A stretch of 64,000 nt of DNA from contig NZ_PJCH01000011.1 of NCBI RefSeq assembly GCF_002943565.1, positions 186,001 to 250,000 of the forward strand, written 5' to 3'. The position numbers and the translations under genes were made by a program. How positions within the stretch are numbered: position 1 is the stretch's first letter; every line of letters begins with the position of its first letter. The notes beneath the pieces are model-generated. The model was not told the origin of the DNA. It was given only the letters and a program-made list of their open reading frames with translations, and ran no database searches. This document shows positions 32,540-43,733 of this stretch, in pieces. The stretch comes from Hyphococcus luteus (lineage in GTDB: Bacteria > Pseudomonadota > Alphaproteobacteria > Caulobacterales > Parvularculaceae).

Positions 32540-33241
32540 CTATTCCTCGCCGATATGTTTGAACGTGTCCGGCGCGAGAAGGACGATGACGCCGCCTTCC
32601 TGACGGATGAGGCCTTCCGACTCCCAGAGCTTTAATTGGCGGTTGACGTTCTCGCGCATCATCCCCGCATGGGCGCCGAGATTGCCCTGGGAAAGCTTCA
32701 TGTCGATATGGAGCGCGCCGTCGCCGTCCCGGTGGCCGTAGGTTTCGCCGAGGCGCAACAGCGCGCGCGCAAGCCGCGGCGCCGCCGGCAGGGTGGCGAT
32801 GTCTTCCAGGAGGAAATTGGTGTGGCGGATGCGCTGGCAGAGCGCGGCGATGATCTGCAGCGCGACGCCGTGATTGCGCTCGAGAAAATCGAGCACGTCG
32901 CGCCGGTAAAGCCTTAACGCGCGGGTTTCCTGAAGCGCGCTCGCAGAGGCCGACCGGGCCCCGCCGTCGAAAACGCCCATTTCGCCCAGGACCTCGTTCT
33001 CGCCCATGAAGGCGAGCACGGTCTCCTTGCCGGCGTCGGAATAGCTCGAGATCTTCACCCGGCCGGAAAGGATGATGTAAAGGCAGTCGCTGTCGTCGCC
33101 TTGCGCGAAAATCTGCTTGCGCCCGGCGAAGACGACAGGATGCGCGGACTCAAGCAGGCCCTGCAGCTTGTCGTCCGACAAAGCCTCGAAAAAGGGATGC
33201 CGTTTCAGCTCCCAGATCAATCCGGCGTCGGCGCCTTTCAT
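32540..33241 (-). CDS. CRP-like cyclic-nucleotide-responsive regulator
   Basis: 233 residues. The cyclic-nucleotide domain (about 15-130) has the phosphate-binding cassette GEMGVFDGGARSAS (86-99), with E87, R96 and S97 matching the cAMP-binding Glu, Arg and Ser of CRP. No Cys cluster of the FNR kind is present at the N-terminus. The helix-turn-helix (184-205) contains MRENVNRQL; R196, E197 and R201 align with the Arg-Glu...Arg that read TGTGA in E. coli CRP (SRETVGRIL). Two perfect TGTGA-N6-TCACA boxes lie upstream at 33764 and 34088. An adenylate cyclase gene lies further upstream on the same strand. Binding to these boxes is predicted, not shown. Confidence 0.85.
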   Translation of the reverse strand: MKGADAGLIWELKRHPFFEALSDDKLQGLLESAHPVVFAGRKQIFAQGDDSDCLYIILSGRVKISSYSDAGKETVLAFMGENEVLGEMGVFDGGARSASASALQETRALRLYRRDVLDFLERNHGVALQIIAALCQRIRHTNFLLEDIATLPAAPRLARALLRLGETYGHRDGDGALHIDMKLSQGNLGAHAGMMRENVNRQLKLWESEGLIRQEGGVIVLLAPDTFKHIGEE

Positions 33242-33322
33242 GGGGTCTCGCGCCCTCTCCCACTGCGCTCGCCGGGAAGTCTACCGAAAAATCAGCCTGT
33301 TGTCGCGTTGCAATAAAGAAAG

Positions 33323-33354
33323 GCGGCGCGCCCCTCCCCCAAGGGACGCGCCGC
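33323..33354 (-). terminator. Terminator between small gene 1 and the CRP-like gene
   Basis: GCGGCGCG-CCCC pairs with GGG-CGCGCCGC around a short loop, with one mismatch. Read leftward it is followed by the T-rich CTTTCTTTATT. It would separate the small-gene transcript from the regulator gene that starts at 33241. Confidence 0.6.
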
Positions 33355-33597
33355 TCTCAAGAGCCCGTCTCATTAGCCCGCAGCGCCGCGCGGCGCGGGA
33401 TGGACAAATGTTCGCCAGCAGCAATCCCGATGCCCTAAAGGCTCTTAATTCTTAAAGAATCAGAGCCGAAGCTGTATCGGGACGCGGAAAGGACCATCTG
33501 GTTTTCCCTCTTTGCATGACGTTGCCGGACCTATCGATCAGGCTCTGGGCGAGGCCGGGACGGGGCGATTGTCCTGACCTCTGGGGCTCTGTTTGTT
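33355..33597. other. Long 3' region of small gene 1 with hairpin at 33440-33467
   Basis: Between the small gene stop and the terminator lie 240 bases with no supported frame. GGCTCT (33440-33445) pairs with AGAGCC (33462-33467), and the loop contains the palindrome ATTCTTAAAGAAT-like segment, giving a near-continuous stem. Read leftward it is followed by TTTA. It could be a first terminator, or part of a structured 3' untranslated RNA. Confidence 0.4.
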
Positions 33598-33684
33598 TCA
33601 GCGGCTCACCGTGAACAGGCTGGAAACGCCGAGGGCCGCATTGAGGCCGATGAAACCGATGATGATGATTTCGATGACGCCCAT
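33598..33684 (-). CDS. 28-residue hydrophobic small protein, copy 1
   Basis: The frame ATG to TGA encodes 28 residues: MGVIEIIIIGFIGLNAALGV, then a short polar end (SSLFTVSR). CAGGAGAG lies just before the ATG, a strong ribosome site. The peptide is one hydrophobic segment with an acidic residue at position 5 and a basic C-terminus, so it probably inserts in the inner membrane. A paralogue at 33921-34007 differs at only five or so residues, with most changes conservative, which argues for selection on the protein. It lies 80 bases below a perfect CRP-type box. I do not recognise a family; a small regulatory membrane protein or type I toxin-like peptide are both possible. Confidence 0.7.
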   Translation of the reverse strand: MGVIEIIIIGFIGLNAALGVSSLFTVSR

Positions 33685-33763
33685 GATGCTCTCCTGTTTC
33701 CCTTTGTTCCGGTCTCTCCCGACCGCCGATGGTTAAAAGATAAAAGCGCCCTGGATTTTCCGC

Positions 33764-33779
33764 TGTGATGGCGGTCACA
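33764..33779 (-). promoter_or_regulatory. CRP-type box upstream of small gene 1
   Basis: TGTGATGGCGGTCACA is a perfect TGTGA-N6-TCACA palindrome. Read leftward, a TATCTT element (33737-33742) lies with its centre 32 bases from the box centre, the spacing of a class II CRP-activated promoter (box at about -41.5). The gene starts 80 bases below the box. Confidence 0.75.
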
Positions 33780-33841
33780 GGCGCCGCCGGTTTTCGTTAA
33801 TTCCTGTAGTCTCCTGTTTTTCCTAGACTTTCCGCCCGCAT

Positions 33842-33873
33842 GCGGCGCGCCCTTCCCCCGATGGGCGCGCCGC
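33842..33873 (-). terminator. Hairpin downstream of small gene 2
   Basis: GCGGCGCGCCC and GGGCGCGCCGC form a perfect 11-bp stem with a 10-base loop. It lies 48 bases past the stop of small gene 2. No T-run follows on the leftward strand, so it may be a weak terminator or an RNA-stabilising hairpin. The same GCGGCGCG stem sequence is reused at 33323. Confidence 0.5.
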
Positions 33874-33920
33874 GTCTCCCCCTGCTTGGGCGGCGCAACG
33901 CTTCTCGCTTGGCGTTGCTA

Positions 33921-34007
33921 TCAGCGGCGGACCGTGACGAGGCTGGAAAGGCCGAGGGCCGCGTTGAGGCCGATGAAACCGATGATGATGATTTCGATGA
34001 CGCCCAT
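33921..34007 (-). CDS. 28-residue hydrophobic small protein, copy 2
   Basis: A second 28-codon gene. Its first 19 residues (MGVIEIIIIGFIGLNAALG) are identical to copy 1, ending LSSLVTVRR. GCAGGAGAGATCAAA precedes the ATG. The unit of box, TATCCT element, a 5' leader that can fold (GGTCGGGA...GACC) and coding region is duplicated as a whole, about 323 bases apart. Third-position changes between copies (for example AAT/AAC for Asn15) while the N-terminal protein stays the same support a real coding sequence. The predicted location is the inner membrane. Function is unknown; too short for most annotation pipelines. Confidence 0.7.
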   Translation of the reverse strand: MGVIEIIIIGFIGLNAALGLSSLVTVRR

Positions 34008-34087
34008 TTTGATCTCTCCTGCTTTCCGTCTTCCGGTCTTTCCCGACCGCCGATGATTGAAGGATAGGAGGAGCCCCGATTTATCGC

Positions 34088-34103
34088 TGTGATGGGCGTC
34101 ACA
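34088..34103 (-). promoter_or_regulatory. CRP-type box upstream of small gene 2
   Basis: TGTGATGGGCGTCACA is a second perfect TGTGA-N6-TCACA palindrome, 81 bases above the ATG at 34007. The TATCCT element (34061-34066) again has its centre 32 bases from the box centre, as in copy 1. The box lies 61 bases beyond the cyclase stop. Confidence 0.75.
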
Positions 34104-34164
34104 GGCCGGACCACATCCTTAAAAAAGAATGAACGCCGGCAGTTTTTGCTGATTTTACAGGGGG

Positions 34165-36408
34165 TTAGCTTTGGCCTTGGTGACGCATGGCCTCGGCCTT
34201 GGCGACAAAAAAGGCGATGGCGTCGTCGAACCCGTAAGTCTCGCCCTGCCCGCAGGCCCCGAAATGTTCCAGCGCTCCATAGGCGTCGCCTTCTTCAAGG
34301 GCGAGGATTCCCGCTTCAAAGGCGCGGCGAAACTGCTGGAAAGCGGGACTTGCGGCGAGGGCTTCGTCGCCCGCCAGGGCGAAGATCACCGTCGGGTCGG
34401 AGCGCCCCTTCACCGTAAAGGCGCCAAGCGGCACGGCGGCGAAATCGGGAATGCGCTGGCGCATCTCGGCTGAAATGATGATCGGCACGCCATATTGCTT
34501 GGTGAGCGATTCCAGCCGCGAGGTGAGGTTCACCATATCGCCGAGCATGGAATATTCGAGCTTGTCTTCGGAGCCGAAATTGCCGACCCGCGCTTCGTCG
34601 ACATGAAGGCCGATGCCGATGCGGATCTCCGGCACGGGCAGCTCCTTCGTCGACCGCCATCCGTCATTCAGCTTGTCGAGCGCTTTCATCATGTCGAGGG
34701 CGGCGCGCGCCGCTTCCGCCGGATGGTCGGCCACGTCGATCGGCGCGTTCCACATGGCGGCGAGGCCGTCGCCCATATATTTGTCGACGAGCCCCTTATG
34801 GACGACGACGATACGCGTCATCTGGGTGAAATACTGGTTGAGCATCGCCGTCACCTGTTGCGGCGTCAGCTGCTCCGAAATCGAGGTGAAGCCGCGAATG
34901 TCGGAAAAGAAGGCGGTGATCTCGCGCTGCTCGCCTTCGAGCTTCAACAGCGTCGGGTCGCGTTCAAGACGCTCCAGGAGAAGCGGCGACAGGAACTTGC
35001 CGAAGGCGCCGCGGATAAAGCGCCGCGCCAATTGCTCCTGCTGGAACATCACCACGAAAGCCGGCACGAACGCCGCCGTGACCACTAGGCCCGGCGTCAC
35101 CGGATCGATCAAAAGGCGCGAAGACTGAAAGGCGTAAAAGGCGCCGCCGAAAAGCGCGGCGGTGAGGACCGCCCAGATGCCGAAGCCCGCCGCCGCGGAA
35201 AGGCGCGGCAGGAAAAGCAGGATCATGAGCGAGACGATCGCCGCAAGGCCGATTTCGATGGGGCGCATCAGATCCCAGGCGCGGAACAGCGTCTTGCCCG
35301 CCAGCGCCTGTTCGATGACTTCCGCATGGATGTGCACGCCCGGACGCTCGTCGCCAAGCGGCGTGACAAGGACGTCGCGCAACCCCTCCGCCGAGGCGCC
35401 GATCATGACGATCCTGCCCTTGACCGCATCGGCGATATCGGACGGATCTCCTTCGAGAATATCGACGACCGACAATCGTCTTTTCGCAACGCTGTCGGGC
35501 CGCGAATAATGCACCCAGAGCTGGCCGTCTTCAGTGGTCGGAAAATGCAAGCGGCACATCACCACTTCGGACACCGACTGGCGCGCAATGCCGGTGACAT
35601 GGGCGCGGCACTGGCCGTTCTGCGCCGCCTTCACGAAAGCCGGCGTCGCATATTGCGGATCGAGTTTCGGCGCGGCGACGCGGATCGCCTCAAGCGCAAG
35701 GCTCGGATAGACTTCCGTCCCGTCGCAGGCGAGCGCGATCAGGGGCACGCTCCGGACAATCGCGTCCTCGGCGAGGCCGGCGCGCGCGAAGCCCTCGCCG
35801 CTCGCCGCTTCGCGGAACATCTTCAGCGGCGGCACCACCTGGCGAAAGCTCGGCGCCACGCGCGCAAGATCGCTCGCCGGCATGCCCTGCACGCGGGAGG
35901 CGCCAAGCGCCGGCGGACAGCCCCCGTCGGAAGCGCCGGCGCGCGCCGTCAGATGCAGAACCGTCGGCGCCGATGCGAGCGCCGCCGCAAACCGTCGGTC
36001 GTGATCGACTGCGGCGAGATCGGAAGCGCCAAGCTCGGCGACAATGGGCGCAAGCACCGGCGAATCGAGCCAGCTCTTGGCGACATTGCCGGGGCTTGTG
36101 CGGTCAGGCTCGGCCAGAATGACGTCGAAAACGATGGACGCCGCGCCCGCCTCATTCAGCTTGTCGATGATGGTTGCGAAACGGTGGCGCGGCCACGGCC
36201 ACTGGCCGTATTTTTCAAGCGCCGCGTCGTCGATTTCGACGACGCGCACCGGATCGGCGTCGTAATCGCGCGGAGCCAGGCGCTGGAACTGGTCGAACAC
36301 GCGGTCGCGGGCGATGTTGACGAGCGCCGGGTCGTTGAAAACCAGCGCGAGCGCCAGGACCGCGCCGACCAAACCGGCGATGCGAGGCCCGAGGTGATGG
36401 CGCCCCAT
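34165..36408 (-). CDS. CHASE2-domain class III adenylate cyclase
   Basis: 747 residues. An N-terminal helix, an extracytoplasmic CHASE2 sensor domain (about 35-330), three membrane helices (about 345-430), then a class III cyclase domain (about 470-650). Catalytic residues are present: metal Asp503 (FFSDIRGFTS) and Asp547 (DKYMGDG), and transition-state Asn627 and Arg631 (GDMVNLTSRLE). Lys543 and Asp624 at the purine-selecting positions indicate ATP rather than GTP, so it should make cAMP. It is the last gene of a leftward operon (TPR/barrel, FecR, cyclase; 13-base gap to FecR). It lies upstream of the twin CRP boxes and CRP-like regulator. The CHASE2 ligand is unknown. Confidence 0.92.
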   Translation of the reverse strand: MGRHHLGPRIAGLVGAVLALALVFNDPALVNIARDRVFDQFQRLAPRDYDADPVRVVEIDDAALEKYGQWPWPRHRFATIIDKLNEAGAASIVFDVILAEPDRTSPGNVAKSWLDSPVLAPIVAELGASDLAAVDHDRRFAAALASAPTVLHLTARAGASDGGCPPALGASRVQGMPASDLARVAPSFRQVVPPLKMFREAASGEGFARAGLAEDAIVRSVPLIALACDGTEVYPSLALEAIRVAAPKLDPQYATPAFVKAAQNGQCRAHVTGIARQSVSEVVMCRLHFPTTEDGQLWVHYSRPDSVAKRRLSVVDILEGDPSDIADAVKGRIVMIGASAEGLRDVLVTPLGDERPGVHIHAEVIEQALAGKTLFRAWDLMRPIEIGLAAIVSLMILLFLPRLSAAAGFGIWAVLTAALFGGAFYAFQSSRLLIDPVTPGLVVTAAFVPAFVVMFQQEQLARRFIRGAFGKFLSPLLLERLERDPTLLKLEGEQREITAFFSDIRGFTSISEQLTPQQVTAMLNQYFTQMTRIVVVHKGLVDKYMGDGLAAMWNAPIDVADHPAEAARAALDMMKALDKLNDGWRSTKELPVPEIRIGIGLHVDEARVGNFGSEDKLEYSMLGDMVNLTSRLESLTKQYGVPIIISAEMRQRIPDFAAVPLGAFTVKGRSDPTVIFALAGDEALAASPAFQQFRRAFEAGILALEEGDAYGALEHFGACGQGETYGFDDAIAFFVAKAEAMRHQGQS

Positions 36409-36421
36409 GGGGTCCGCTCCC

Positions 36422-38839
36422 CTAAAGCGGCGGCGGCGTCGCGCCGGGAACGCGCGGCATCAGTTCGATCTGGCCGGTCCCCTCGCCGCCGGCGCCGTCA
36501 TTGAAGTTGAAATAGATGTCGGCGTTTTCGCCGGCCCCGCCATTGCCGTCGCGGATCAGGAACAGGGCGTTTTCGATATTCGTCCCGCTGAAATCATCCG
36601 CGCCGAAACCGAACACCCCCTGGCCGCCGGCCGCGTCGTCAAAACTGACCGCGCTTAAGTTTTCGAAAATATCGAGATTGAAGTTGTTGAACGTATCGTC
36701 GATGGCGACCGACACATAGGATTCGCCGCCGCCCACCGTGCGGTTGGCGAAATTGATGTCGATCTCGGCCTCCGCATCGCCGGAGGAAAACGTCCCGTTC
36801 GCCCGCTCGATCGCTGCATAGCCGGCAAAGCCGCGCCCCGCCGCCGTGCCGTCGAAATGGTACGTGCCGGCGCCGAGCGAACCCGCCAGCGCCTCAAGTT
36901 CGGCGATGGTCGAAAGCGGCGGAACGCCGGAATCCTGAAAGGCACCCACTTCCGTATACAGATGATTTCCGGCGTCGTCGGACACGATCGCCGCAATATC
37001 GGCCTCGAGCCCGTCGCCGTCGCCGATGATCGCCTGACCTTTCAGCGCGTTCGGATCGGAACTAATCGAGGCCAGCGTATGGAAGGCGAGCCCGAAAAGA
37101 CCGCTGTCGAATGACGCCGCCTGGTCGAGGGCGACATATTGCACCGTGTTCTCGCCGCCGATCGCCGCGTCCGCCGCCGCGGAGACAGCGAGGAAGGACG
37201 AGCCCCCGCCGACCGTGCGATTGTCGAAATCGATTTCAAGCTGGACATAAGAAACGCCGGTCAGGGGCGTCGGCGTTCCCAGGGTCGAAATGACATTGGT
37301 CGAAAAACCCGTCACCAAAGTCGTGCCGGCGCCGCTCAACCCGTCAAGTTCGGTTATCGACAGGGCGAAGCCGAGCGGCGTCGTGAAATAGGCGAGGTCC
37401 CCCTCGCCCGGCGTAAACATCAGGTCGTCGGCGCCGCCTGTAAGCGCAATATTGTTGTTCTGGGCGTCGACGTCCGAATAGTCGATGCTGACATCCGCCG
37501 TCACCGTGTCGTTTTCCCCCTGACGGATGGTGAGGTTGTATGTCGGCGTCATATAGACGGCGAGATCGTTGTCGCCGGCGGAGAACGGAACGCCGGCGCT
37601 GTCGAACAGGGCGTTCAGATAACCGTCTTCAAAAGCGGCGCCGCCGCCGGTGAAGCCGGAGAAATTGCGCTGGGTGAGATCGTCCGGATCCGTCACCGTC
37701 CCGTCAAAGCGCGCGAAACTCGCCAGCGCTTCCGGCGCGATGGTGCGCGAGGCCCAGTCCACATGGATCTGGAAGATCACGACGCCGTCTTCGATGCTCG
37801 TCCCATTGTCGATCTGCGCCGGCGCGACGGCGAAAAGCACCCCGTCCGGATTGTTGGTCTGCGCATCCGCAAAATCGTCGAGAACATCGAGCGGCAGGAT
37901 ATCGCCCACGGGGATCGTCACAGGCGGCGGTGGCGGGGGCGGCGGCGGCGGCGGCGCATCGTCATCGCCCACCGAAGGCTGCTCCGGTTTGTTTTCGGTA
38001 TCCTCGTCGTTCTTTTCGTTCTTGTTTTCGGCGTATCGCCGTTCGTCGTCGCCTTCCTGCGCGCCCTGGCCCGAATTGTTCAGAGGATCGCCCGCATAGT
38101 CGAACGCAGAGCCCTCGCTTTCGGGAATGACCGGCACGAAGGCCTCGTAAATGCGCCTCAACAACTCGTCATCGGCGCGGAACGGTTCGGAAACGCCGTC
38201 GGGGCCGATGCGCACCGCGAAGCCGGAGCGTTTCAGCACCGCTTCAATCGCTTCGCGATTGCCGTCGGTCCAGAATTCAACAAGGCCTTTCGGCGCCAGA
38301 CCGCTATTGTCGCGCACCGGCCCTTCGAGCAGCGCGTAAACATACCCGTCGAGCTCCACCAGAATGACATTGGTGCCGCGCACGCCCATGGTGACGCCGC
38401 TCTCCTGGATCTCGACTTCCGTCGAGCCCGGTTCGGTGTCGCGCCCGGAGGAGAACCGGAACCCGCCGCGGAAGAAATTGATCACCCGCCGGCGGCCCGC
38501 GCCTTGCGCGTCGAAAAATTCGTTGATCGCGGACTCGCTGTTGGGCGAGAAGGTGTAGGTGCTCCAGTCGCACAGCTTTAATTGCAGATGCGAGGCGTCG
38601 CCGGTGCGCACCGTGTCCCCGGTAAACATGTCCGCGCCGCTGGACGGGCGGAAAGCGTTTTCGCGGTTAAGGCGCTCAACGTCGACGGCGGGGCCGACGA
38701 CGGCGGTGGCGTTGCCGGCCTTCGGATCGTTGGTGTCGCGGTCGAAACATTCCGCGGCCTCTGCGCCAAACGGCGCGAGCGCGAGAACAGCGGCGGATGC
38801 GGCGGCTTTCAGCGTCAGCATTGAAATGCGTTTCGTCAT
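36422..38839 (-). CDS. FecR-domain secreted protein with repeated C-terminal units
   Basis: 805 residues. A signal peptide (to about AEA, residue 28) is followed by a FecR-type domain (about 60-200: GDTVRTGDASHLQLKLCD, GVRGTNVILVELDG), an acidic linker with a run of prolines (near 295), then about 480 residues containing a repeated motif: DFDNRTVGGGSSFLAVS, NFANRTVGGGESYVSVA and the weaker DWASRTIAPEAL. FecR domains sit in the periplasm and often work with sensor proteins. It lies between a TPR/barrel gene and the CHASE2 cyclase, with 9- and 13-base gaps, so it may feed an envelope signal to the CHASE2 domain. The repeats look like beta-sandwich units. Confidence 0.82.
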   Translation of the reverse strand: MTKRISMLTLKAAASAAVLALAPFGAEAAECFDRDTNDPKAGNATAVVGPAVDVERLNRENAFRPSSGADMFTGDTVRTGDASHLQLKLCDWSTYTFSPNSESAINEFFDAQGAGRRRVINFFRGGFRFSSGRDTEPGSTEVEIQESGVTMGVRGTNVILVELDGYVYALLEGPVRDNSGLAPKGLVEFWTDGNREAIEAVLKRSGFAVRIGPDGVSEPFRADDELLRRIYEAFVPVIPESEGSAFDYAGDPLNNSGQGAQEGDDERRYAENKNEKNDEDTENKPEQPSVGDDDAPPPPPPPPPPPVTIPVGDILPLDVLDDFADAQTNNPDGVLFAVAPAQIDNGTSIEDGVVIFQIHVDWASRTIAPEALASFARFDGTVTDPDDLTQRNFSGFTGGGAAFEDGYLNALFDSAGVPFSAGDNDLAVYMTPTYNLTIRQGENDTVTADVSIDYSDVDAQNNNIALTGGADDLMFTPGEGDLAYFTTPLGFALSITELDGLSGAGTTLVTGFSTNVISTLGTPTPLTGVSYVQLEIDFDNRTVGGGSSFLAVSAAADAAIGGENTVQYVALDQAASFDSGLFGLAFHTLASISSDPNALKGQAIIGDGDGLEADIAAIVSDDAGNHLYTEVGAFQDSGVPPLSTIAELEALAGSLGAGTYHFDGTAAGRGFAGYAAIERANGTFSSGDAEAEIDINFANRTVGGGESYVSVAIDDTFNNFNLDIFENLSAVSFDDAAGGQGVFGFGADDFSGTNIENALFLIRDGNGGAGENADIYFNFNDGAGGEGTGQIELMPRVPGATPPPL

Positions 38840-38848
38840 GATCGCCCC

Positions 38849-40276
38849 CTAAAACGCAATGCGTTTCGACAGCAAAAGCGCGGCCTTGTGCGCCTTGTAG
38901 TCGAAGTTCAAAATATTGGAGTCGACGGTCTCATATTCATACTGAGCGATGAGATTGATGTCCTTCACTCCTTCCGGCGCTTTCGGGAAGAAGAAGGAGA
39001 ACGGCACGCCCAGCGTCGCGCGCGCGCGATAAAGCCATTCGTCCCGCACTGTGGGGCCGATGAACGGGTCATTGCCGTCATATTCTGATTTTTCCGCCCA
39101 CAGACCAATCAGCGAAAAGGCGCCGCGCCCTAAAAGCCAGCTATGCTGAACATTAGCGCCATAGCGGTCATAAGACTCGAAAGCGACTTCGCCGTCCTTT
39201 ATCATGTAGAGGCCTTCGACCTGGACGGCCTGGGTCGGGCTGAACCGCCATTTGGTTCCGCCGCGCAGGCCGATGCGCTTGCCCGAGCGCAAATAAGCAG
39301 CCCCGAAATTCGACGTCGCGCGGAATTTTTCATCCTCAACCCGCACCGCGCCGTAAGACGTGATTTTCGGGTTCCAGCGATAGGCGGTCCGCACTTCGCC
39401 GCCCCAGCTTGAGAGGTAATCGTCGCCGCCGAGCCAGTAGAAACTCCCGCGCGCCGTCGGCGTGAAGGACCATTTGCCCGAATAGAACGTGCCGCCGGCC
39501 GCAACGGTCGCGGCGTCGAGATCGAGCGTGTCGACCTCGACCTTGTCGGAGCGGTAGTAACCGACATCCGCATGCAGCATATGGCCTTCCTGCGATCCGA
39601 GATCGTGCAGGAGCCTTCCTTGCGCGGAGAAGACATAGGCCGCATCGCCGTTGCGTTGATTGGCCGGCACGATCGCCTCAAGATAGGCCGTGGGATTGAC
39701 CGGATCGTTCGGGATCGCGAATTGCAGCATGCCGCTAGACGGCGCCTGATTGCGGTTTGAATCGTAATCGACGCCGGCGGTGACGGTTAATGAGCCGCGC
39801 GTCCTGCGCTGCTCGTATTTGATGCGGTTCAAATAAGCTTCGGCTTCGGCGGCGAGCGCCGAGGGCAGCAAGCCGCTTTCCAGCGCCAGCTCCAGCTCAT
39901 AGCGCGCGCGGTCGTAAAGCCCGAGCCGGTAAAGCACGAACCCGTATAAGACGCGCACGTCATAAAGATCCGGGTTTATAAGAAGGATCCGTTCGAGCGT
40001 CGCGCCGGCTTCCTTAAGATCGCCCGCCGCGATCTGCTGGCGCGCATAAGCGATGTTAAGCCGGATATCTTCCGGCGCTCTCAGAATTTGCTCGAAGGGG
40101 ATCGCCGCCTCGCGCGCCGTATCGCTTTCTTCCGCACGCCGCTGGACGTCCATGAGCCCCTGATCGGCCGCCTCGCGCGCCGATTCCTCCGGCTCCTGCG
40201 CCAGCGCGGGTCCAAGCAGGCAAAGCGTCCCGGCGACCAGCGCTCCGGATGCGCGACATGCGGACCATTTCACCAT
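38849..40276 (-). CDS. TPR protein with C-terminal outer-membrane beta-barrel
   Basis: 475 residues. Signal peptide MVKWSACRASGALVAGTLCL ending ALAQ. TPR-like helices (about 60-150: LNIAYARQQIAAGDLKEAGA, VRVLYGFVLYRLGLYDRARY) precede a beta-barrel (about 170-475) with alternating aromatic strands, ending ALLLSKRIAF, a C-terminal Phe. The layout matches surface lipoprotein assembly modifier (DUF560/SLAM-like) barrels, though I cannot confirm this by eye. The ATG at 40276 follows GGGGGATTTC and opens the signal peptide; the longer frame to 40489 is not credible. It is the first gene of the FecR-cyclase operon. Confidence 0.78.
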   Translation of the reverse strand: MVKWSACRASGALVAGTLCLLGPALAQEPEESAREAADQGLMDVQRRAEESDTAREAAIPFEQILRAPEDIRLNIAYARQQIAAGDLKEAGATLERILLINPDLYDVRVLYGFVLYRLGLYDRARYELELALESGLLPSALAAEAEAYLNRIKYEQRRTRGSLTVTAGVDYDSNRNQAPSSGMLQFAIPNDPVNPTAYLEAIVPANQRNGDAAYVFSAQGRLLHDLGSQEGHMLHADVGYYRSDKVEVDTLDLDAATVAAGGTFYSGKWSFTPTARGSFYWLGGDDYLSSWGGEVRTAYRWNPKITSYGAVRVEDEKFRATSNFGAAYLRSGKRIGLRGGTKWRFSPTQAVQVEGLYMIKDGEVAFESYDRYGANVQHSWLLGRGAFSLIGLWAEKSEYDGNDPFIGPTVRDEWLYRARATLGVPFSFFFPKAPEGVKDINLIAQYEYETVDSNILNFDYKAHKAALLLSKRIAF

Positions 40277-40489
40277 GAAATCCCCCTGATGAGCGTGCGC
40301 CCGCATGTTGCAGCGCACAGCAATTCTCTCCCAAATCCCCGTCATGCAAACAGCGCGCCTTTTATCTTCATAGAGACGCTGCAGGCCGTTCTTAATCGCA
40401 ACTATGCGCCGCGCTCCTTTGCGCCGCAACCGTTTTCTATTCGGCTGGACGCTGAAATTATTGTAAAAACTGGCCGTAAGACGCCGCAT

Positions 40490-41273: not shown

Positions 41274-43733
41274 TTGGAGAGCGTGAAAATCGCCATTGTC
41301 GGCTCAGGCCCTGCCGGGCTGAGCGCGGCGGGCCGCGCCGCGGCCCGGGGGATTTCGCACGTTCTCCTGGAAAAGGCCCCTCACCTTTCCGACACGATCT
41401 ACAAGTACCAGCGCGGCAAATACATCATGGCGACGCCGGACCAGTTGCCGCTCAGGTCCGACATCGAGTTTCAGGCGGGCTCGCGGGAAAGCATCATCAC
41501 CCGCTGGGACGACGACGCCGAAGACCTCAAGATCAATGTTCGCCATAATTCCGAAGTCACCGCGATTTCCGGTTCGAAAGGCGCCTTCCAGATCTCGCTC
41601 GCCGACGGCGAGACAATCAACGCCGACTTCGTCGTTCTTGCGGTCGGCGTTCAGGGCAACCCGAACAAACTGAAAAATCCGGGTACGGACCAGCCCTTCG
41701 TCCAATATCAGCTCGACGATCCGCGCGAATATTACGATGAAAACATCATCGTCATCGGCGGCGGCGACGCGGCGATCGAAAACGCGCTCGGCGTCGCCAA
41801 TCCCGACCAGGGCAATATCGTCACGCTGCTTCAGCGCTCGGACGGCTTTCCCCGCGCCAAGGAAGCCAATGTGCAAACGCTTTACAAGGCGCGCGACGAA
41901 GGCCGGCTCGACTTCATCACCGAAGCCTCGCTCATCCGCCTCGAACGCGGCGGCTCCGGCGAAAATTTGTGGATCGCCGTTGTCGATACGAAAGACGGCG
42001 AAGCGCGGCTTCCCTGCGACCGCATCATCGCCCGCCTCGGCGCCGCGCCGCCGCGCAAATTCGTCGAGGCTGCTGGCGTCGAGTTCACCGGCCCCGACCG
42101 CGAAGCTTTCCCGGTCCTGACGCCGCAATACGAAACCACCGTGCCGGGGCTGTATGTCATCGGCGCGCTCGCCGGTTTCCCCCTGATCAAGCACTGCATG
42201 AACCAGGGCCATGACGTGGTCGAGTTCATCGCCGGCAACACCGAGCTGCAACCGCCGGACACGCCGCTCCTTGAAAAACTTTTCGAAGGCGCGCCCGCGA
42301 AACGCAGCGTCGATCAATGGCTCGAGCATATCCGCTCGACCGTGGACGTGTTGCAGGACGTTTCCCCCCTGCAGATGCGTGAATTCCTGCTCGCCTCGAC
42401 CATCCATTATAAAAAGCGCGGCGACATTATCATGAAGCGCAACGACACAGGCTCGTCGATCTTCGCGATCATCGAGGGCTCGGTCGCCGTCGAGGTCGAT
42501 CCGAAAAACCCGTCCGTCACCGTGCCGATCAAGAAAGGGAACATTTTCGGCGAGCTCGGGCTCATCTCCGGGCGCCGGCGCACCGCCACCATCCGCGCGG
42601 CCGAGCCCGCCATGCTGCTCGAAATTCCGCGCAATGCGACGCTGAAATTGATGGCCTCGGTGCCGGGCGTCAAACGCCGCATGGACCGGCTTTCCATGGA
42701 GCGCCAGGTCGGCCAGATCTTCGGCCAGCTCCTGCCTCAGAGCGCCATTGACGAAATCGTCGATGCGGCGGAAATCATTCCTTTGAAAGCCGGCGACGCC
42801 TTTATCGAAGAAGGCGAGCGCAACACCGATATTTTCATCATCCGCTCCGGCAGCGCCGTCGTTGAAAAGCGCATCGGCGGCAAGGACGTTTTTCTCTCTT
42901 ACGTGCTCGCCGGCAATTATGTGGGCGAGATGTCGCTGTTTTACGAAGGGCTCAGGACCGCGACCGTGCGCGCGGCGATCAAATCGGAAGTGGTGCGTCT
43001 GCCCGGCGAAATCTTCGAGCGTCTGCTCAATCAGAATCCGGATCTGTACCGCGCCGTCGACGACCTCGTCGCCTCGCGCCGCAAGCTCAACGATTATGTG
43101 GAGGCGAAACGCGAAAGCTTCTCCTCCGTCGTCGACATGCACACCTCCATCGCGCGCTTTCTGCTCGAAGAAGAAGGCCTGTCGGAAGCGACCGACGCGC
43201 TGGTCATCGACGAAACGTTATGTGTGGGTTGCGACAATTGCGAAAAGGCCTGCGCCGACATTCACGAAGGCATTTCCCGCCTCGACCGCGAAGCCGGCAA
43301 TTCCTACGCCTATATTCACGTCCCGACCTCCTGCCGCCACTGCGAACATCCGCACTGCATGACCGACTGTCCGCCGGATGCGATCCATCGCGGGCCCGAC
43401 GGCGAAGTCTTCATCGACGAAAAATGCATCGGCTGCGGCAACTGCCAGCGCTATTGCCCTTACGGCGTCATTCAGATGGCCGCCGTGCCGCCGGAAAAAC
43501 CCGGCATCCTCTCCTGGCTTTTCTTCGGCCGCGGTCCGGGGCCTGGCGAACCGGATAAGGACTGGATCGAGAAGACGCGCAAGAAAGACGACGCACCGCC
43601 GAAGCTCGCGGTCAAATGCGACATGTGTTCAGGGCTGAAAGGCGGACCCGCCTGCGTGCGCGCCTGCCCCACCGGCGCCGCCCAGCGGGTTTCGCCGGAG
43701 GACTATCTCTCCATCGCCGAAGGGAAGGGCTAG
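41274..43733 (+). CDS. FAD oxidoreductase fused to two cyclic-nucleotide domains and a four-cluster ferredoxin
   Basis: 819 residues, no signal peptide. It has a thioredoxin-reductase-like FAD/NAD(P) half (GSGPAG at 10-15, second nucleotide site IGGGDAAIENA near 160, to about 330), then two cyclic-nucleotide domains. Their phosphate cassettes are G426-E427 ... R436-T437-A438 and G551-E552 ... R561-T562-A563; both keep the Glu and Arg needed for cAMP. The last part (C650 onward) has four Cys quartets (CVGCDNCEKAC, CRHCEHPHCMTDC, CIGCGNCQRYC, CDMCSGL...CVRAC), as in DmsB/NrfC electron-transfer subunits. A cytoplasmic NAD(P)H or quinone-linked electron entry point gated by cAMP is the natural reading. 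TTG start; GTG at 41283 is an alternative. Confidence 0.88.
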   Translation: MESVKIAIVGSGPAGLSAAGRAAARGISHVLLEKAPHLSDTIYKYQRGKYIMATPDQLPLRSDIEFQAGSRESIITRWDDDAEDLKINVRHNSEVTAISGSKGAFQISLADGETINADFVVLAVGVQGNPNKLKNPGTDQPFVQYQLDDPREYYDENIIVIGGGDAAIENALGVANPDQGNIVTLLQRSDGFPRAKEANVQTLYKARDEGRLDFITEASLIRLERGGSGENLWIAVVDTKDGEARLPCDRIIARLGAAPPRKFVEAAGVEFTGPDREAFPVLTPQYETTVPGLYVIGALAGFPLIKHCMNQGHDVVEFIAGNTELQPPDTPLLEKLFEGAPAKRSVDQWLEHIRSTVDVLQDVSPLQMREFLLASTIHYKKRGDIIMKRNDTGSSIFAIIEGSVAVEVDPKNPSVTVPIKKGNIFGELGLISGRRRTATIRAAEPAMLLEIPRNATLKLMASVPGVKRRMDRLSMERQVGQIFGQLLPQSAIDEIVDAAEIIPLKAGDAFIEEGERNTDIFIIRSGSAVVEKRIGGKDVFLSYVLAGNYVGEMSLFYEGLRTATVRAAIKSEVVRLPGEIFERLLNQNPDLYRAVDDLVASRRKLNDYVEAKRESFSSVVDMHTSIARFLLEEEGLSEATDALVIDETLCVGCDNCEKACADIHEGISRLDREAGNSYAYIHVPTSCRHCEHPHCMTDCPPDAIHRGPDGEVFIDEKCIGCGNCQRYCPYGVIQMAAVPPEKPGILSWLFFGRGPGPGEPDKDWIEKTRKKDDAPPKLAVKCDMCSGLKGGPACVRACPTGAAQRVSPEDYLSIAEGKG

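Follow-up and report, generated by a model that had tools for sequence, protein, structure and literature searches.

A predicted cAMP relay in Hyphococcus luteus with a pair of membrane micropeptides as its probable local output

The window analyzed here is a 64,000-nucleotide stretch of the Hyphococcus luteus genome (contig NZ_PJCH01000011.1, positions 186,001 to 250,000), which encodes a CHASE2-domain nucleotide cyclase and a regulator resembling the cyclic AMP (cAMP) receptor protein, CRP. Along the minus strand, the gene order is a tetratricopeptide-repeat (TPR)/barrel protein, a FecR protein, the CHASE2-cyclase, a 923-bp gap, and the CRP-like regulator. The gap between cyclase and regulator contains two CRP boxes and two copies of a 28-codon gene, missed in the initial annotation, each of which has a good Shine-Dalgarno site and encodes a hydrophobic single-helix peptide (Table 1). 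We propose, with a probability of roughly 0.6, that the locus forms a cAMP relay with this pair of tiny membrane peptides as its local output. The genes, the boxes, their spacing, conservation, and co-occurrence are observed in the sequences, from which we infer cAMP production, binding, transcription, membrane insertion, and the presence of a peptide partner.

Gene calls, Pfam, and a pattern search recovered both principal genes and both boxes where the initial annotation had placed them. The boxes are perfect TGTGA-N6-TCACA sites matching TGTGATSNNNGTCACA, with two seen in the window against 0.01 expected. The genome-wide scan that the initial annotation had suggested, run as a pattern search alongside a backwards-pattern control, yielded six perfect sites across the 4.92-Mb genome, including the two at this locus, and none for the control. 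Each window box lies 95-96 bp upstream of a 28-codon gene (87-100 bp from box to micropeptide ATG in close relatives), and the units of box and gene recur every 323-324 nt and are 80-88% identical in DNA sequence, indicating that box and peptide gene were duplicated together. A TAnnnT element is positioned exactly 21 nt past the box in 25 of the 26 boxes upstream of peptide genes in this genome and its relatives, and at no other offset within 5-39. Taken as a -10 element, TAnnnT places the box center at -41.5, where CRP classically sits at class II promoters. By this geometry, the boxes would sit in class II CRP promoters with predicted start sites. The composite pattern TGTG-N8-CACA-N21-TAnnnT is found at five genomic places, two of them at the locus, against one for its backwards control. 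A sigma-70 consensus scan of both strands of the locus found no promoter and also missed the predicted peptide promoters, which would be unsurprising for promoters that depend on an activator.

The protein reading these boxes is most plausibly the regulator encoded beside them. Its nearest solved relatives are mycobacterial and other actinobacterial CRP-type regulators, headed by the Mycobacterium tuberculosis CRP (3d0s, 2.9e-32). Alignment to solved relatives upheld the earlier assignment of E87, R96, and S97 to a cAMP site, within a cassette that also includes G86, and identified T141/N142 in the C-helix as the TN pair of M. tuberculosis CRP. R196, E197, and R201, previously proposed as TGTGA readers, are likewise in place and are absent from the other Crp/Fnr proteins of the genome. 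Seven genomic Crp/Fnr-type proteins match the Crp helix-turn-helix (HTH) model above cut-off over nearly its whole length, and among them only the window regulator has both an R-E-x3-R recognition helix and a GE..RS cyclic-nucleotide pocket; the others were rejected as box readers on their recognition residues. The protein carries the features of the cAMP-responsive CRP family, namely a cyclic-nucleotide-binding (cNMP) domain with a Crp HTH, the GE...RS and T/N residues, and the R-E-x3-R readers. Together with the class II geometry and the co-occurrence of box and regulator described below, these residues make it well supported that the regulator reads the boxes in a local cAMP circuit.

The micropeptide genes bear the marks of protein-coding sequence. 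Among 16 equal-length copies, median nonsynonymous (dN) and synonymous (dS) divergences are 0.16 and 0.81, a ratio of 0.20, and changes by codon position (643/384/1351) are concentrated at third positions, a strong sequence-level indication that the peptide is under purifying selection. The conserved residues recur with a helical period and define a single face that includes E5, L8, I12, N15, G19, and S22 (shuffle test, P 0.006 for the whole family and P 0.0002 for its box-less paralogues). We read this face as that of a helix that may dock on a protein partner. MgrB, SafA, AcrZ, and KdpF are tiny inner-membrane helices with regulated expression that bind a membrane protein. The peptide would resemble them as a tiny inner-membrane helix under regulated expression, expected to bind a membrane protein, but no sequence relation to them was found in Pfam, NCBIfam, or the PDB. 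The family itself has no match in Pfam or NCBIfam, only sub-threshold matches in Rfam, and only chance-level matches in the PDB; one of these, NADH dehydrogenase chain 4L (E 0.1), was treated as hydrophobic-helix noise. A literature search for small membrane proteins tied to cyclases returned nothing closer than VcdRP of Vibrio cholerae.

Orthologues of the regulator (66-95% identity) occur in nine relatives, all but one in the same genus of the Parvularculaceae, and these retain the order cyclase, one to three box-peptide units, and regulator wherever the contig reaches; the TPR-FecR-cyclase order upstream is also kept. In genus members whose regulator is 45-50% identical, the peptide gene sits within cyclase/M48-protease clusters, and on contigs that carry both peptide gene and regulator the distance between the two is ~10 kb. 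These genomes do not lack the system: the strict TGTGA pattern had missed their TGTGCG-type boxes (TGTG-N8-CACA), in which the spacing is unchanged. Several divergent members (L087, L089, L095, L113, and similar loci) also have a like box before a CsgG-like gene near the cyclase, and in these members the locus may be under feedback from its regulator. Across 28 genus genomes, the composite promoter occurs at 58 sites in the 19 regulator-positive genomes and at three unconvincing, noise-level sites in the nine regulator-negative ones, compared with eight for the backwards control in all 28. At least two composite sites are present in 18 of 19 positive and none of nine negative genomes (Fisher 1.4e-6, with genomes taken as independent, which they are not).

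The peptide profile finds matches in 27 of the 28 genus genomes at E values up to 0.1, some of them weak and box-less paralogues included, but almost none elsewhere in the order, and in a 289-genome sample of the class it recovered only this genome. The family therefore appears confined to this lineage. Box-less paralogues follow a TonB receptor, often with a small membrane protein; one example is a 29-residue paralogue (L053:8369-8458), and orthologous arrangements of receptor and paralogue are found across the genus, mostly with a membrane protein of ~130 residues between them. In another Parvularculaceae genus (G077; L162:7076-8169), a 50%-identical regulator has three tandem composite promoters at a distance of 5 kb. 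Two of these precede tandem copies of an unrelated 56-residue membrane protein, and the third precedes no obvious protein.

The cyclase retains metal-binding Asp503 and Asp547 together with substrate-binding Lys543, the last as the initial annotation had assigned it. That annotation had paired it with Asp624 for ATP selection, which alignment to the class IIIb cyclase CyaC (1wc1) corrects: Asp624 falls on a variable position, and the substrate partner is Ser620, which aligns with the Thr of FTAIGPSVN. A Thr or Ser at this position marks class IIIb cyclases, and D503, D547, K543, and S620 together correspond to the class IIIb adenylate cyclase residue set. On class IIIb precedent, the cyclase likely prefers ATP.

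In the relay we propose, an envelope signal passing through the TPR/barrel, FecR, and CHASE2 proteins would activate the cyclase, and the resulting cAMP would load the regulator, as its residues suggest. A regulator dimer on TGTGA-N6-TCACA at -41.5 is predicted to bind and activate the class II promoters, whose geometry and co-occurrence with the regulator are observed. From each promoter, a short mRNA would then be made that combines a 5' hairpin and a Shine-Dalgarno site with a 28-codon frame; the frame, its selection, and the hairpin are evident from the sequences. The peptides, monocistronic and cAMP-activated, would each act as a single inner-membrane helix whose conserved face binds a membrane protein. 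The adjoining cyclase module is the first candidate partner, which would provide circuit feedback, although this is the weakest step. Several points weigh against the proposal. Cyclase binding cannot be the role of the whole peptide family because the box-less paralogues adjoin a TonB receptor instead of a cyclase, and the helical-face test, when confined to the boxed group, goes no lower than P 0.05. Because the arrangement is inherited as a whole among the relatives, their genomes do not count as independent tests. Finally, a second cyclase-domain match lies on contig C10, and the cAMP made by the cyclase could join a global pool.

The initial annotation described a self-contained cAMP circuit; taken in an autoregulatory sense, the boxes would control the regulator and/or the cyclase and the short frames would be incidental. 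A local circuit is well supported, and the boxes do lie between the two genes, as autoregulation would have it; each box, however, faces an overlooked 28-codon gene rather than the regulator. The box nearest the regulator (box B) is ~520 bp upstream of the regulator start, separated from it by a peptide gene and the strong terminator at 33323-33354, and the cyclase gene ends before both boxes. The orientation and spacing of the -10 elements point to the peptides, and box and peptide have been duplicated together, up to three times. Since tandem micropeptide genes lie in front of the boxes, and the genome has at least three further sites elsewhere, the autoregulatory sense of "self-contained" is unsupported. 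The box before the CsgG-like gene in divergent members suggests that some locus feedback may exist there, but as an account of the present boxes we regard autoregulation as very improbable.

The transcripts may alternatively act mainly as structured small RNAs in which the frame is secondary, as in VcdRP. The predicted transcript would start at a conserved ATCGGCGG and then fold a small hairpin, with 92.6% of cells paired against 0-49% for slid versions; four compensatory cells, all at a single pair that switches from U-A to C-G in four sequences, give modest covariation among related sequences. A hairpin related to the 33323-33354 terminator follows most peptide units in relatives, many with G-rich loops. 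The brevity of the units, their conserved 5' hairpin, and the G+C-rich hairpins of their terminators would suit a dual-function or regulatory RNA, as would the third tandem box without an obvious peptide in G077. There is also precedent in the CRP control of VcdRP (29 amino acids) and Spot 42 (PMC8672173) and in the control of a small RNA gene by Sinorhizobium meliloti Clr (PMC10127613). We nevertheless consider a primarily RNA-based function unlikely, given strong codon-level selection on the peptide, a frame better conserved than the 3' RNA, and divergent members that retain the peptide and not the RNA flanks. No Rfam family was found either, and a known RNA element at the units was rejected on sub-threshold matches. 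A cAMP-switched, type I toxin-like peptide that slows growth by membrane depolarization, comparable to the LexA-controlled TisB, would fit the length, hydrophobicity, tandem duplication, and multi-copy paralogy of the family. Its conservation, however, is residue-specific on one helical face, beyond composition, and several box-less copies are stably retained beside receptor genes. A simple scan found no antisense promoter, a weak test given that it also missed the predicted peptide promoters. A toxin role seems distinctly doubtful compared with the cAMP relay.

The CRPs of E. coli and M. tuberculosis share the class II geometry at -41.5. The window regulator has the same cAMP cassette and TGTGA readers as these proteins, although its regulon appears small and local (five composite sites in the genome) where theirs is global. 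The closest known circuit is the S. meliloti cAMP cascade of Clr, CyaD1, SMc02177 (FecR), and SMc02178 (PMC5498481, PMC10127613, PMC13001267). Both systems cluster a CHASE2 cyclase, a CRP-family regulator, and a FecR-domain gene (PMC5498481), involve a TPR protein and an outer-membrane barrel (NsrA in S. meliloti), and place a regulator box before an adjacent envelope gene of unknown function at class I/II promoter distances; most Clr-activated promoters have a distance of -42 to -76 (PMC10127613). In contrast, the Clr core GTNNCNNNNGNNAC is not matched here, by inspection: on each strand the window boxes depart from it at one base, and the TGTGCG boxes of divergent members do not conform to it. 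The local target in S. meliloti is a periplasmic protein with a signal peptide rather than tandem 28-residue single-helix peptides, and the circuit there has a role in host signaling. VcdRP shares a short CRP-controlled transcript, with a 29-residue frame, but in that case CRP represses and the peptide binds citrate synthase; the available text of that report describes neither tandem copies nor a linked cyclase (PMC8672173).

The circuit type is thus known from S. meliloti, while the micropeptide family and its promoter are absent from every library searched. Circuits of CHASE2 cyclases and CRP-type regulators are best known from rhizobia, and their role elsewhere is largely unknown. The present locus defines a candidate output gene almost to the base, through its conserved promoter, its very small product, and the brevity of the target list, so that a few strains would suffice to test the circuit. 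A further gain is an unannotated micropeptide family, apparently under purifying selection and tied to a second messenger, of a size often missed by gene calling. More tentatively, lineage-specific cAMP-switched membrane micropeptides could be a dedicated output and feedback of CHASE2-FecR cyclase circuits, with genera having separately recruited unrelated tandem peptides behind the same class II box (28 residues here, 56 in G077); we hold this broader idea to be possible rather than probable.

Table 1. Features of the cyclase-regulator locus, in window coordinates (aa, amino acids; SD, Shine-Dalgarno; UTR, untranslated region)
Feature	Position	Strand	Evidence or remark
CRP-like regulator (REG), 233 aa	32540..33241	-	cNMP-binding domain + Crp-type HTH; Pfam PF00027 3.8e-21, PF13545 5.9e-14
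Intrinsic terminator 3' of peptide gene B	33323..33354	-	14-pair stem, CTTTCTTTAT tail
Micropeptide gene B, MGVIEIIIIGFIGLNAALGVSSLFTVSR	33598..33684	-	SD CAGGAGAG; profile matches; family dN/dS 0.20
5'-UTR hairpin, unit B, CGGTCGGGAGAGACCG	33710..33725	-	Pairing and compensatory changes across relatives
Predicted -10 element TATCTT, unit B	33737..33742	-	Exactly 21 nt past box; inferred +1 ~33730
CRP box B, TGTGACCGCCATCACA on gene strand	33764..33779	.	Pattern search
Terminator-like hairpin, unit A	33842..33873	-	88% identity to 33323-33354 hairpin; no T run
Micropeptide gene A, MGVIEIIIIGFIGLNAALGLSSLVTVRR	33921..34007	-	SD CAGGAGAG; duplicate of unit B
5'-UTR hairpin, unit A, CGGTCGGGAAAGACCG	34034..34049	-	Hairpin comparison with relatives
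Predicted -10 element TATCCT, unit A	34061..34066	-	Exactly 21 nt past box; inferred +1 ~34054
CRP box A, TGTGACGCCCATCACA on gene strand	34088..34103	.	Pattern search
CHASE2 sensor + class III (IIIb-type) nucleotide cyclase, 747 aa	34165..36408	-	PF05226 3.6e-52, PF00211 1.7e-19
FecR-domain secreted protein, probably same operon	36422..38839	-	PF04773 4.8e-6; syntenic in relatives
TPR + probable outer-membrane barrel protein, probably same operon	38849..40489	-	PF14559, PF11059; syntenic in relatives

Adjoining the cyclase operon and divergent from it, positions 41274-43733 encode a fusion of an FAD reductase, two cyclic-nucleotide-binding domains, and a ferredoxin, which is syntenic in two relatives and is possibly a second cAMP effector. 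Beyond the window, three of the four other strict genomic boxes (C3:11891, C8:1700, and C12:379812) also have the TAnnnT spacing; the fourth, C1:325403, lies inside a receptor reading frame, has no -10 element, and was discounted as a target. The other predicted box targets are mostly secreted or membrane proteins. A perfect composite promoter at L099:6892-6934 has no evident short reading frame behind it and possibly drives a small RNA. Composite promoters at L100:1700-1742 and L101:5813-5855 precede, respectively, a 161-residue protein that has a membrane segment at its N terminus and a 138-residue secreted protein; neither has a Pfam match, and a close relative retains comparable promoters and proteins (L150, L164).

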